From assembly GCF_000733845.1 (NCBI RefSeq), contig NZ_JPOI01000001.1, positions 2,209,501-2,273,500 of the forward strand: a stretch of 64,000 nucleotides of DNA, given 5' to 3'. Of the stretch, positions 37,976-42,502 are shown one piece after another. The DNA is from Geobacillus vulcani PSS1. GTDB taxonomy: Bacteria > Bacillota > Bacilli > Bacillales > Anoxybacillaceae. Both the position numbers and the translations under genes were made by a program. The first letter of the stretch is position 1. Every line of letters begins with the position of its first letter. The notes below the pieces were generated by a model. That model was not told the origin of the DNA. It ran no database searches and saw only the letters and a list, made by a program, of their open reading frames with translations.

Positions 37976-39186
37976 AACCGCCGTTTGAACAGGCGCTCGG
38001 CATTATCCAACAATTGAAGCGGCATGGTTATGAGGCGTATTTTGTCGGCGGCGCAGTGCGCGACTTGTTGATCGGGCGTGCGATCGGCGACGTCGATATC
38101 GCGACAAGCGCGCTGCCGGAAGAAGTGATGCGCTTGTTTCCGAAAACCATCGACGTCGGTTCGAAACACGGCACGGTCGTCGTCGTGCATGAAGGAACAG
38201 CGTACGAAGTGACGACATTCCGCACGGACGGCGATTATGAAGACCATCGCCGTCCGGAGTCGGTGACGTTCGTTCGTTCGCTTGAGGAAGACTTAAAGCG
38301 GCGTGATTTCACGATGAACGCCATTGCCATGGATGAACATGGAACGATCATTGATCCGTTTGGCGGACAAGAGGCGATCGAGCGTCGGCTCATTTGCACG
38401 GTCGGGGCGGCGGACGAAAGGTTTCGTGAAGATGCGCTTCGCATGATGCGGGCTGTTCGCTTTGTCAGCCAACTTGGATTTGCGCTTGCTGAGGACACGA
38501 AGCGGGCGATTGTCCAAAACGCACCGCTTATGGCCCACATTTCTGTCGAACGGATGACCATGGAAATGGAAAAGCTGCTCGCCGGTCCGTTCGTCGCCGA
38601 GGCGCTGCCGCTGTTGGCCGATACCGGGCTGTCCGCTTATTTGCCTGGACTGGCCGAAAAAGAGCCGCTGCTGCGCTCGGCTGCCGCCTTCCGCTGGCCG
38701 TGGCTTTCGGAGCGCGAAGAGCGCTGGGCGCTTCTTTGCCGCGCGCTTGATGTCAAAGACATTCGTCCGTTTTTGCGCGCCTGGAAGCTTCCCAACAAAG
38801 TCATCGATGAAGCTGGCGCCATTTTGGCGGCGCTCGATGATGTCCCTAGGCCGGAGGCGTGGACGAACGAACAGTTGTTTTTGGCCGGCCTCAAGCGGGC
38901 GCTATCGGTTGAAGCGGTGCGCGCTGCGCTGATCGGCGCGCCGCCTGAACGGCATCATGAAGAGCTTCGCCGTCGCTTTGCGTCGTTGCCGATCAAAACG
39001 AAAGGGGAGCTTGCCGTCAATGGGAAAGACGTCATTCGCTGGGCTGGAAAACCGGCCGGTCCGTGGGTGAAAGAGACGTTGGATGCCATCTGGCGGGCGG
39101 TCGTCAGCGGCGAAGTCGAAAATGAGAAGGAGCGGATTTACGCATGGCTCATGGAGCGCAATCGGACACACGAAAAAAACTGTTAG
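37972..39186 (+). CDS. cca: CCA-adding tRNA nucleotidyltransferase
   Basis: The enzyme adds or repairs the 3' CCA of tRNA without a template. The 404 residues match the length of the crystallised G. stearothermophilus class II enzyme. Motifs: '[12 protein letters not shown]' (about 24-35), the metal aspartates 'DVDIAT' (about 40-45), '[10 protein letters not shown]' (about 111-120) and the nucleotide-selecting '[12 protein letters not shown]' (about 154-165). It overlaps birA by 43 nt. Confidence 0.98.
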
Positions 39187-40133
39187 AGTTGTTTGCCGAA
39201 GCGAACGGCGAGTTTTTGTCCGGGCAAAAAATCAGCGAACAGCTCGGCTGTTCGCGGGCGGCGGTATGGAAGCATATCGAGGAGCTGCGCAAAGAAGGAT
39301 TTGAACTCGAAGCAGTGCGCCGCCTTGGCTACCGGATTATCAGCACTCCAGATAAAGTGACGGCCAATGAAGTCCAGCTTGGCTTAAAAACGGACAAACT
39401 TGGCCATGCCATCCACTTTTTTGACGAGGTCGATTCAACGCAACGCATTGCCGCGAGACTCGCGTACGAAGGGGCGCCGGAAGGAACGCTCGTCGTCGCG
39501 GAAGAGCAAAAGGCTGGGCGAGGGCGCTTGGATCGGAAATGGTTTTCCCCGAAAGGGACGGGCATTTGGATGAGCCTCATTTTGCGGCCGCCCATTCCGC
39601 CGCAGCAGGCTCCACAGTTGACGCTCGTGGCTGCGGTGGCCATCAGCCAAGCGATTCAAGAAATAACCGGGCTTGTCCCAGACATTAAATGGCCGAATGA
39701 CATTTTGCTTAGCGGCAAAAAATGCGTCGGCATTTTAACGGAGCTGCAAGCCGATCCTGACCGTGTTCATTCGGTCATCATCGGCATTGGCATCAATGTC
39801 AATCAAACGATCGAGCAGTTTCCGGAGGATATCCGAGCCATCGCCACATCGCTGGCCATTGAAAAGGGCGCGCGCGTGAAGCGCGCACCGCTCATTCAGG
39901 AAATTTTGTTCCGACTTGAGCGGCTGTACAAGCAATATTTAGAACACGGCTTTCGCCCGATTAAGCTTCTTTGGGAAGGGTACGCCGTCTCGATCGGCAA
40001 GCCGGTAACGGCCAGAACATTGGGTGGGGCGATTCGCGGCATTGCCCGCGGCATCACCGATGACGGACGGCTCATTTTGGAAGACGAGCAAAACCATGTT
40101 CATTATATTCATTCTGCCGATATCCAGCTGTAA
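39144..40133 (+). CDS. birA: Biotin-protein ligase and biotin repressor BirA
   Basis: BirA biotinylates acetyl-CoA carboxylase and, as biotinyl-AMP complex, represses biotin genes. The 329 residues have an N-terminal winged helix ('ISEQLGCSRAAVWKHIEEL', about 30-48), the biotinyl-AMP loop 'GRGRLDRKWFSP' (about 125-136) and 'IKWPNDILLSGKK' (about 180-192). AAGGAG lies 12 nt before ATG, and the start is inside cca. It is the last gene of the operon; no biotin operator is seen nearby. Confidence 0.96.
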   Translation: MAHGAQSDTRKKLLELFAEANGEFLSGQKISEQLGCSRAAVWKHIEELRKEGFELEAVRRLGYRIISTPDKVTANEVQLGLKTDKLGHAIHFFDEVDSTQRIAARLAYEGAPEGTLVVAEEQKAGRGRLDRKWFSPKGTGIWMSLILRPPIPPQQAPQLTLVAAVAISQAIQEITGLVPDIKWPNDILLSGKKCVGILTELQADPDRVHSVIIGIGINVNQTIEQFPEDIRAIATSLAIEKGARVKRAPLIQEILFRLERLYKQYLEHGFRPIKLLWEGYAVSIGKPVTARTLGGAIRGIARGITDDGRLILEDEQNHVHYIHSADIQL

Positions 40134-40141
40134 ATTGGCAC

Positions 40142-40170
40142 TAGAAAAATTGTGACAATTTTGTTAAAAT
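40142..40170 (+). promoter_or_regulatory. panBCD promoter
   Basis: TAAAAT (40165-40170) has a TGn extension (TGTTAAAAT) and a modest -35 TAGAAA (40142-40147) at 17 bp. It gives a leader of about 220 nt before panB. Confidence 0.55.
40146..40162. promoter_or_regulatory. Perfect palindrome in the panB promoter spacer
   Basis: AAAATTGTGACAATTTT is a perfect 7+3+7 inverted repeat filling the interval between -35 and -10. This is typical placement for a repressor operator. The factor is unknown; it does not resemble the Bacillus biotin operator as I remember it. Confidence 0.5.
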
Positions 40171-40176
40171 ACAAAG

Positions 40177-40355
40177 CGAGGAAAAGGGCAGTATCTTTCG
40201 CAAGAAGAACTGCACCGAGGCCGACAGCATGAATAGGTGAAAGAAATGATCTGCCTTGATCCTTTTTGAAGGACTAGGACAGAGGGATGAACGAAACCGG
40301 CGGTGGTTTTATGGCGTCCTTCTTTCTCAAGGCGGGAAAGAAGGACGTTTTGTTT
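40177..40355 (+). ncRNA. Structured panB leader RNA, candidate 'pan' motif with terminator
   Basis: The leader holds a hairpin at 40188-40213 (GCAGT pairing with ACTGC, inner TCTT/AAGA, single A and A-rich bulges), a small hairpin TCCTT/AAGGA at 40260-40273, and then a strong terminator at 40315-40355. The 'pan' RNA motif described upstream of pantothenate genes consists of hairpins with conserved bulged A residues, often in tandem. The first hairpin and the setting fit it, but I cannot run the covariance model. The architecture (promoter, leader, terminator, gene) implies attenuation of panBCD. Confidence 0.5.
40315..40355 (+). terminator. Attenuator-type terminator before panB
   Basis: A 12-bp perfect stem (CGTCCTTCTTTC at 40315-40326, GAAAGAAGGACG at 40336-40347) is followed by TTTTGTTT, 44 nt upstream of the panB start. 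Confidence 0.9.
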
Positions 40356-40398
40356 CGGGCGGTTCATCTCCTCTGCAGCCAAAGAGGAGGGAACGAAA

Positions 40399-41238
40399 GT
40401 GAAAGCGAAAACCGATTTTTTCCACATGAAGCAGGCGGGCGAGCCGATCGTGATGGTGACCGCCTACGATTTTCCGTCCGCGAAACTTGCAGAACAGGCT
40501 GGAGTCGACATGATTTTGGTCGGCGATTCACTTGGCATGGTTGTGCTCGGGTATGATTCAACGATCCCGGTGACGGTCGATGATATGATCCACCATACGA
40601 AGGCGGTTCGTCGCGGTGCACCGAACACGTTTATTGTCACCGACATGCCTTTTATGTCCTACCATGCATCCAAAGAAGAGGCGTTGCAAAACGCTCGCCG
40701 CATCATGCAAGAGTCAGGGGCGAACGCTGTTAAAGTCGAAGGAGCGGATGAAGTCGTCGACATGATCGCCGCGCTGACGAAAGCCGGCGTGCCGGTCGTC
40801 GCCCATCTCGGGTTGACGCCGCAATCGGTCGGCGTCCTTGGCGGCTATAAAGTGCAAGGCAAAGATGCCGAAAGCGCGAAAAAGCTGATCGATGATGCGA
40901 AACAATGCGAGCAGGCGGGAGCGATCGCCCTTGTCTTAGAGTGTGTTCCGAAGCAGCTCGGGGCGGCCATGGCCCGGGAACTCACCATTCCCGTCATCGG
41001 CATCGGCGCTGGGGGGGAGGTCGACGGCCAAGTGCTCGTGTATCACGATTTGCTTGGCTACGGTGTCACCCGCGTTCCGAAGTTTGTGAAACAATACGCG
41101 TCCATCCAAGAGACGATCGTTGAGGCGTTAGCCAACTATGTCGCTGATGTCAAGCTGCGCCAGTTCCCCGAGCCGGCGCACACGTTTACGATGAAGGAAG
41201 AAGAATGGGTGGCGCTTTACGGAGGAAAACAAGGATGA
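40399..41238 (+). CDS. panB: Ketopantoate hydroxymethyltransferase
   Basis: PanB adds a hydroxymethyl group from methylene-THF to ketoisovalerate. The 279-residue barrel has '[16 protein letters not shown]' (about 20-35) and '[13 protein letters not shown]' (about 39-51) with the Mg-binding Asp. GTG 40399 follows AAAGAGGAGG by 8 nt. Upstream in-frame codons lie within the leader terminator and are rejected. The 3' end overlaps panC by 4 nt. Confidence 0.97.
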
Positions 41239-42137
41239 TTGTGATGGATCGGATTGCGGCGATGCAGGCGCTCATGCGCCAATATCGCCGTGAAGGAAAG
41301 ACGATCGGGTTCGTTCCGACGATGGGCTATTTGCATGAAGGGCATACGTCCCTCATCGATCGAGCGCGCGCAGAAAATGACATCGTCGTCCTAAGCGTTT
41401 TCGTCAACCCGCTTCAGTTCGGACCGAACGAAGACTTTGCCCGTTATCCGCGCGATTTCGAGCGCGACCGGCGCATCGCCGAACAGCACGGGGTCGACGT
41501 CTTGTTTCATCCGGAAGCGGACGAGATGTATCCGGAGCCGCTTACCGTACGAGCGATCGTTCAAGCACGCGCCGACGTGCTGTGCGGACGGTCGCGCCCC
41601 GGCCATTTTGACGGCGTGGCGACGGTGCTCATTAAGCTGTTCAACATCGTTATGCCCGACCGAGCGTACTTTGGGATGAAAGATGCCCAACAGGTGGCGG
41701 TTGTCGACGGCTTGATCCGCGATCTCAATTTTCCAATCGAGCTCGTGCCGGTGCCGACGGTTCGCGAGGCGGACGGGCTGGCGAAAAGCTCGCGCAACGT
41801 TTATTTGTCGCCGCAAGAACGGAGTGAGGCGCCGGCGCTGTATGCGGCGCTTCAAGCGGCCGCTTCCGCCGTCGAACGAGGGGAGCGGAGCGCAGCGGCC
41901 ATCCGCCGGATGGTTAGAGAGCGTATTGAAGCGCATACGCACGCTGAGATCGATTATGTCGAAGTATGTTCATATCCGGATTTAACGCCGCTCGAGACGC
42001 TTGCCGGGACAGTGCTGATCGCTGTCGCCGTCCGATTCGCGAGCGCCCGGTTGATCGACAACATCATCATCGAGTTGCCCAAAACCGGCGAACAAGGGGA
42101 TGAAAAGGGGGAGCAAGCATGTTTCGCACGCTCATGA
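41235..42137 (+). CDS. panC: Pantothenate synthetase
   Basis: PanC condenses pantoate and beta-alanine with ATP. The 300 residues have the nucleotidyl-transferase signature '[15 protein letters not shown]' (about 29-43), '[12 protein letters not shown]' (about 56-67) and '[12 protein letters not shown]' (about 179-190). GGAGG lies about 11 nt before ATG 41235; ATG 41244 is an alternative. It overlaps panB by 4 nt and panD by 19 nt. Confidence 0.97.
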
Positions 42138-42502
42138 ATGCCAAAATTCACCGCGCTCGTGTAACCGAGGCCAATCTCGATTACGTCGGCAGCATTACGA
42201 TCGATGAAGATATTTTGGATGCCGTCGGCATTGTGCCTAATGAAAAAGTACAGGTAGTGAACAATAATAATGGAGCCCGTTTTGAAACATACGTCATCCC
42301 CGGCGAGCGCGGCAGCGGCGTCTTTTGCCTAAACGGCGCCGCCGCCCGCCTTGTGCAAAAAGGGGACGTCATTATTGTCATCTCGTATGTGCTCGTTCCG
42401 GAGGAAAAAATTTCTGCACATCGACCGAAAATCGCGATTATGGACGAAAACAACCGGATTGTGCAACTCATTGCCGAAGAGCCGGCACATACGGTTTTGT
42501 AA
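42119..42502 (+). CDS. panD: Aspartate 1-decarboxylase
   Basis: PanD makes beta-alanine from aspartate using a self-generated pyruvoyl group. The 127-residue proenzyme has the cleavage site Gly24-Ser25 in 'YVGSITID', and Tyr/Asn residues of 'CLNGAAARL' typical of the active site. A GGGGGAG ribosome binding site lies within the panC end. It completes the panBCD operon. Confidence 0.98.

Follow-up and report, generated by a model that had tools for sequence, protein, structure and literature searches.

A pan RNA as a candidate OFF attenuator in the panBCD leader of Geobacillus vulcani PSS1, and the wider gene set led by its relatives in Bacillota

The panBCD genes of Geobacillus vulcani PSS1 are preceded by a pan RNA, a standard member of a known RNA family, and we propose that it may work as an OFF attenuator in which a terminator competes with an antiterminator that borrows a strand from one of the RNA's own hairpins. 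Taken whole, with a second layer through a further helix (P3) and the CoA pool as signal, this is our best explanation of the data, and we hold it with slightly better than even confidence. Comparison of sequences establishes the family membership, the terminator, the complementarity of the antiterminator, the covariation of P3 and the gene contexts. The Rfam model of the family stops at an AGAGGG tail; the antiterminator, P3 and a hairpin over the panB Shine-Dalgarno sequence are added here, as are the contexts with transporter and kinase genes.

The stretch analysed, called the window throughout, comprises 64,000 nucleotides. The sole Rfam match above cut-off within it was the pan model (RF01749) at 40185-40286 on the forward strand, which scored 53.6 bits against a gathering cut-off of 36.2 (E 1.6e-6 over the full 64 kb). 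The match is full-length (model positions 1-92) and was the single pan match found in the whole genome. LhrC and SNORA19 in the window, and MIR8008 in a distant locus discussed below (L190), scored far under their Rfam cut-offs. The score bears out the preliminary description, which had proposed, without database searches, that the leader is a pan RNA. As in the motif described by Weinberg et al. 2010 (PMC2864571), two hairpins in tandem, each with an A bulged out on both strands, lie upstream of panB, panC or panD, here panB (from 40399) followed by panC and panD, and the element itself shows no difference from that motif. Pan leaders have also been listed in two transcriptome papers (PMC4342826, PMC4634765). 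The structured elements that had been seen lined up before panB are all present; the full P2, the antiterminator, P3 and the Shine-Dalgarno hairpin had escaped notice. The features, all on the forward strand, are as follows.

40142-40170, forward: candidate promoter, -35-like TAGAAA and extended -10 TTGTTAAAAT (40161-40170), from a consensus scan and family comparison
40185-40286, forward: pan RNA element (RF01749), from the covariance score
40186-40216, forward: hairpin P1 with bulged A40193 and A40214, from the covariance alignment, letters checked
40251-40282, forward: hairpin P2 with bulged A40259 and A40279, from the covariance alignment, letters checked
40277-40289, forward: antiterminator 5' strand, made of the P2 3' strand and the AGAGGG tail, from folds ending at 40333 and 40336 and a comparative test
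40280-40292, forward: 5' strand of helix P3 (CAGAGGGATGAAC), from the fold ending at 40380 and a comparative test
40313-40349, forward: intrinsic terminator stem-loop, its 5' arm being the antiterminator 3' strand, from a terminator search, folds and comparison of leaders
40350-40357, forward: T-rich stretch 3' of the terminator stem (TTGTTTCG; the T run starts at 40348), read from the sequence
40362-40375, forward: 3' strand of helix P3 (GTTCATC-T-CCTCTG), which likewise complements the Shine-Dalgarno region, from the fold and a comparative test
40367-40390, forward: hairpin hiding the panB Shine-Dalgarno sequence (40367-40374 with 40383-40390), from the fold ending at 40398 and an accessibility comparison
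40385-40390, forward: panB Shine-Dalgarno sequence AGGAGG, from the fold ending at 40398
40399-41238, forward: panB, GTG start, from the open reading frame and its reading
41235-42137, forward: open reading frame taken to be panC, from PanC matches in relatives and partly from family knowledge
42119-42502, forward: open reading frame taken, from family knowledge, to be panD

P1 and P2 each carry one unpaired A per strand, with a spacing of five paired positions in the covariance alignment. Unpaired A residues had been noted on both sides of the first hairpin; those of P1 are A40193 and A40214. Both hairpins extend further than had been drawn: the bulged hairpin placed at 40188-40213 is real and forms only the inner part of P1, and P2, whose lower stem had been missed, has the pairing noted at 40260-40273 as its tip.

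The element sits between an open reading frame read as birA (39144-40133) and panB. The promoter-like pair TAGAAA/TAAAAT at 40142-40170 is at chance level by consensus alone (3 such pairs found versus 2.4 expected in 4 kb); an extended -10 (TTGTTA[AC]AAT) occurs upstream of the pan element in 39 of 41 leaders from the same family. Genes resembling birA keep company with pan RNAs elsewhere too, 5' of the element in the window and within pan-led operons of distant Bacillota (L206, L250, L271, L272, L287). We know of no reason for this association.

At E ≤ 0.001, pan matches were obtained in 41/41 genomes of the same bacterial family, in 202/249 of an order sample, in 172/299 of a class sample and in 83/199 genomes of a broad phylum sample (the phylum of genome G557). 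Among the 174 leaders read from the family, order and class searches, the first pan gene was panB in 168 and panC in five; the remaining leader (L172) had no pan-gene match and lies on a contig that ends 358 nt further on. In one genus (g166), seven genomes carry a pair of pan loci, and in the four where both were read (L161/L162, L163/L164, L166/L167, L168/L169) panB and panC(D) form split operons, each with its own pan RNA.

An intrinsic terminator lies between the RNA and the coding region. What had been described as a perfect 12-bp stem with a T tract is indeed a terminator; its stem comprises 16 pairs when G-T is included (40313-40349), and the T-rich stretch runs to about 40355-40357. 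Terminator scores of ≤ -12 were found in 226 of 247 distinct pan leaders, compared with 19.4% of dinucleotide shuffles of sampled leaders. The set of 247 combines the 174 leaders above with 70 from the broad phylum and six from a pattern scan, less three duplicates.

The 5' arm of this terminator can pair instead with the end of the pan element: in the fold, 40281-40289 pairs with 40315-40323 and 40277-40279 with 40325-40327. In 53 of 89 representative leaders, against 3.1 expected, the 5' arm of the terminator contains CCTTCT, a complement to the AGAGGG or AGAAGG with which the pan element ends. A first, narrower test that used the sequence from just before AGAGGG onward gave no own-specific signal (324/2000 permutations). 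The signal emerged once the P2 3' strand was included (1/5000 and 9/5000), and also in a larger set: in 148 representatives, the P2 3' strand and tail paired with the leader's own terminator arm at -12.62 kcal/mol versus a permuted mean of -11.01 kcal/mol (0/5000). The pairing is own-specific inside sequence classes as well (CAG, 0/5000, n = 93; CGG, 3/5000, n = 48), with weaker pairing across classes. The effect is modest in size, and a control using part of P1 also deviated (13/5000 and 0.4 kcal/mol in the 148-representative test; 8/5000 in the earlier test), so part of the antiterminator signal reflects composition or kinship. Ungapped covariation columns anchored on AGAGGG/CCTCT were set aside: the expected register reached z values up to 3.4 and a neighbouring register 4.2. 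The CCTCT anchor is present in only 45/89 representatives, and the duplex test was relied on instead. A conserved terminator together with a conserved pairing that excludes it supports the attenuator architecture that had been suggested for this leader.

Folding of nascent transcripts is consistent with such competition. In the best fold of RNA ending at 40336, the lower stem of P2, together with its two bulged A residues, has given way to the antiterminator; only the P2 tip stays, and the P2 5' strand (40251-40258) pairs with 40328-40335. Once the terminator 3' arm has been made (RNA to 40352), the model gives a pairing probability of 0.96 for the terminator and 0.70 for P2. A fold ending at 40329 with five extra 5' bases retains P2, which means that the outcome depends on the end point. 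Across representatives, the antiterminator before synthesis of the 3' arm had a mean probability over the tail of 0.58, exceeding 0.5 in only 53 of 89. Pairing of the P2 5' strand with the terminator loop was rejected as a general mechanism: it occurs in 24 of 41 own-family leaders, which are close kin, and in 1 of 57 representatives elsewhere, and is a local feature.

A further helix, P3, encloses the terminator in Bacilli. In the window its 13 pairs, seen when the RNA is folded to 40380, join 40280-40292 to 40362-40368 and 40370-40375. Among 88 representatives, P3 strands paired with their own partners at -16.35 kcal/mol versus -12.13 kcal/mol with strands of other leaders (0/2000 permutations), and masking the CCTCT core left the signal in place (-8.09 versus -5.93 kcal/mol, 0/5000, n = 84). 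The signal was present both among leaders of the order (n = 48) and among the other leaders of the class (n = 40), each at 0/5000. Of the controls, the P1-P2 linker was flat (2831/5000) and the reversed strand weakly deviant (168/5000). The sets were restricted to panB leaders with a terminator found and a start within 200 nt, all others being dropped (159 leaders, 89 representatives). On this comparative evidence we regard P3 itself as real.

P3 competes with the hairpin over the panB Shine-Dalgarno sequence. In the fold model of the window, its probability falls from 0.91 at 40380 to 0.03 at 40398, when the Shine-Dalgarno sequence has been made and hidden. Modelled Shine-Dalgarno accessibility is lower for panB (0.21, n = 48) than for panC of the same loci (0.39, n = 47; p 2e-8). 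The notion that blocking the AGAGGG tail hides the Shine-Dalgarno sequence did not hold up: with the tail forced unpaired, only 4 of 48 leaders lost more than 0.2 in access. Few leaders respond because the Shine-Dalgarno sequence is mostly paired in the model already, and a translational layer via P3 is therefore weakly supported by these models. Between the pan element and panB, one clade (L049, L051, L053, L063, L066) carries a long, conserved insertion that has a stem of its own, approximately 20-110 nt 3' of the element; in two of these leaders (L049, L066) an Rfam scan gave no other family there.

It could be argued that the stem at 40313-40349 serves the upstream birA as a constitutive terminator, that the antiterminator and P3 are by-products of strong conservation, and that the pan RNA acts otherwise, on translation or RNA stability. 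The tail and the terminator arm are indeed strongly conserved, the P1 control was slightly positive too, and in three loci (L157, L261, L263) the coding region begins almost directly 3' of the pan element. However, in 226/247 leaders a terminator lies 3' of the RNA element, here also 3' of the promoter-like -10; moreover, the antiterminator pairing is own-specific within classes, and P3 is own-specific with the conserved core masked while the linker control stays flat. We consider this explanation rather unlikely.

Three parts of the proposed mechanism are inferred: that it switches off, what P3 does and that the CoA pool is the signal. By default, the P2 tail would pair with the terminator 5' arm, and RNA polymerase would read on. 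When the end product is plentiful, a factor, either a protein or the metabolite itself, would hold the bulged-A hairpins P1-P2 and the AGAGGG tail; with P2 held, the antiterminator would be blocked and transcription would stop just after 40349. The direction rests on geometry, since P2 and the antiterminator share a strand and a held P2 would mean termination. On transcripts that escape, the same tail may in Bacilli enter P3 and tie up the strand to which the panB Shine-Dalgarno sequence is otherwise paired. In L263, the pan element finishes with a Shine-Dalgarno-like GGAGG, 8 nt short of the start codon, a layout compatible with the bound state being off. OFF riboswitches of Bacilli such as SAM-I and FMN likewise share a sensor strand with an antiterminator that excludes the terminator. 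In contrast to these, the pan platform has a further helix that encloses the terminator and overlaps an anti-Shine-Dalgarno sequence.

The genes that follow pan RNAs in more distant Bacillota bear on the signal. In the 199 broad-phylum genomes we read 90 of 91 pan loci, using BLAST against exemplars to call the first gene recognised over a range of 2500 nt; two loci (L202, L216) repeat earlier ones, and two others (L227, L228) are identical. Synthesis genes came first in 77 of the 90: a DUF2520 gene, presumably panG-like, in 58, panB in nine, panC in nine and panD in one. The other first genes were birA (four), an ECF S component (three), a PanS-like transporter (two, both followed by panC), BioY (two) and an OPT transporter (one), with none recognised in one locus. 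Transporter, birA or amidohydrolase genes thus start 12 of the 90 loci, 11 of which score above the Rfam pan cut-off and one below (L286, 34.0 bits); five of the 12 contain a pantothenate kinase. Overall, an ECF S component was present in eight loci, a type III kinase in four and a type II kinase in one, the last in a locus (L238) where the pan RNA leads an OPT-family transporter and the kinase.

Both kinase exemplars pass curated NCBIfam cut-offs, and those for ECF S, BioY, OPT and DUF2520 pass Pfam cut-offs; the PanS-like exemplar has NCBIfam PanS as its best match, below cut-off (298.9 versus 400). The best solved relative of one ECF S protein is 4RFS chain S (E 1e-5), which is called PanT of L. 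brevis in two papers (PMC7755397, PMC11521937). In NCBIfam the ECF S proteins come closest to models of folate and thiamine types, without reaching the cut-offs, and pantothenate as the substrate of these proteins may be taken as a lead from sequence similarity. In L244 and L282 an amidohydrolase-like gene, approximately 120 nt 3' of the pan element, separates it from birA; the L244 protein matches NCBIfam NF006560 at 226 bits, below the cut-off of 340, and a salvage enzyme for the pantothenate family of compounds would be a guess.

Some of these genomes appear to lack synthesis genes. G887 has a single pan RNA, before birA-ECF S-CoaX, and neither panB, panC nor panD was found there; panB and panD were not found in G979, panC and panD not in G929 and G934 (where panB is present with two matches each), and panD not in G945, genome completeness not being given for any of the five. 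An RNA that senses an intermediate of pantothenate synthesis (ketopantoate, pantoate or beta-alanine) would suit the synthesis genes that follow in 77/90 broad-Bacillota loci and in 173/174 loci of Bacilli, yet it sits poorly with the 12/90 loci that start with transporter, birA or amidohydrolase genes and with G887, G929 and G934. The five genomes make a pathway intermediate an unlikely signal, and we rate this reading very unlikely overall. We take the CoA pool to be the probable signal because genes for biosynthesis, for uptake and for pantothenate kinase all follow this RNA. This gene set suggests an end product, possibly CoA rather than pantothenate, and a kinase gene under pan control would fit a signal beyond the kinase, CoA first, better than pantothenate.

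Whether such a signal would be read by a protein or by the RNA itself divides two further readings. Sensing of CoA or pantothenate could fall to a dimeric RNA-binding protein with P1-P2 as its site, the attenuator being the same and the RNA binding no metabolite; we give this about even chances. It agrees with the discoverers' idea of a dimeric protein-binding site (PMC2864571), with a small core whose hairpins each offer one bulged A per strand, five pairs apart, and with the single-hairpin versions in other phyla described below. The PyrR leader of Bacilli is a protein-dependent attenuator, and a small hairpin binding site placed before a terminator/antiterminator, as in PyrR-type leaders, would fit the protein-dimer idea. 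To our knowledge, no protein has been assigned to pan. We found no candidate and noticed no regulator gene common to the pan loci read. The five genomes make PanB or PanC an unlikely universal binder, and the same applies to PanD, given that G887 has the RNA and none of the three genes was found there (completeness not given).

Alternatively, the tandem hairpins could be a riboswitch proper, with CoA or a compound that lies past the pantothenate kinase step as the direct ligand. The regulon spans synthesis, uptake and kinase genes, as expected for an end-product sensor, the expression platform has mutually exclusive helices, and two reviews name CoA among cofactors without a known riboswitch (PMC9971707, PMC10043782). 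Against this, the conserved core is small and 16 years have passed without a reported ligand in the literature searched, and we consider direct binding unlikely. That pan RNAs are the missing natural CoA-sensing class, which would bind CoA or a post-kinase compound and repress pantothenate synthesis, uptake and phosphorylation together, is an equally improbable proposition. As far as the literature searched reaches, pan is still an orphan with an unproven ligand, as the preliminary description had it; that search, with subscription papers, preprints and supplements outside its reach, turned up no work on what pan responds to, on its platform or on its occurrence before transporter genes. A paper about regulons under RNA control (PMC3766115) contains none of the five words looked for in it.

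A pattern scan beyond Bacillota revealed single P2-type hairpins before panB in Desulfobacteraceae (L188, L193, L194), in a Deltaproteobacterium (L190) and in an Acidobacterium (L185); a Clostridiales genome has one before a DUF2520-like gene (L180). Among these six, L190 alone scored above the Rfam cut-off and L193 just below, the others giving no match to E 0.1. The P2 3' strand pairs with the terminator arm through 8 to 11 pairs in L188 and L190, weakly in L193, and elsewhere in L185 and L194. Since the single-hairpin versions mostly fall below the cut-off, the pan family is, on this sequence evidence, wider than its Rfam model. Further pattern matches in or beside unrelated reading frames (L175, L178) or with none of the expected genes (L192) were taken as chance. 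The exact P2 pattern gave two matches in 297 genomes of the phylum of L188, both in genomes already in the set, and a regex count of loci without P1 (26/90) was too crude to count as a result.

The pan motif was described in 2010, and in the literature searched we met no account of what it senses. With the switch defined and a broader range of genes behind it, that question narrows to a few candidates: CoA, phosphopantetheine, phosphopantothenate, pantothenate, or a protein that signals one of them. With the strands of the switch defined, compensatory mutants become feasible.
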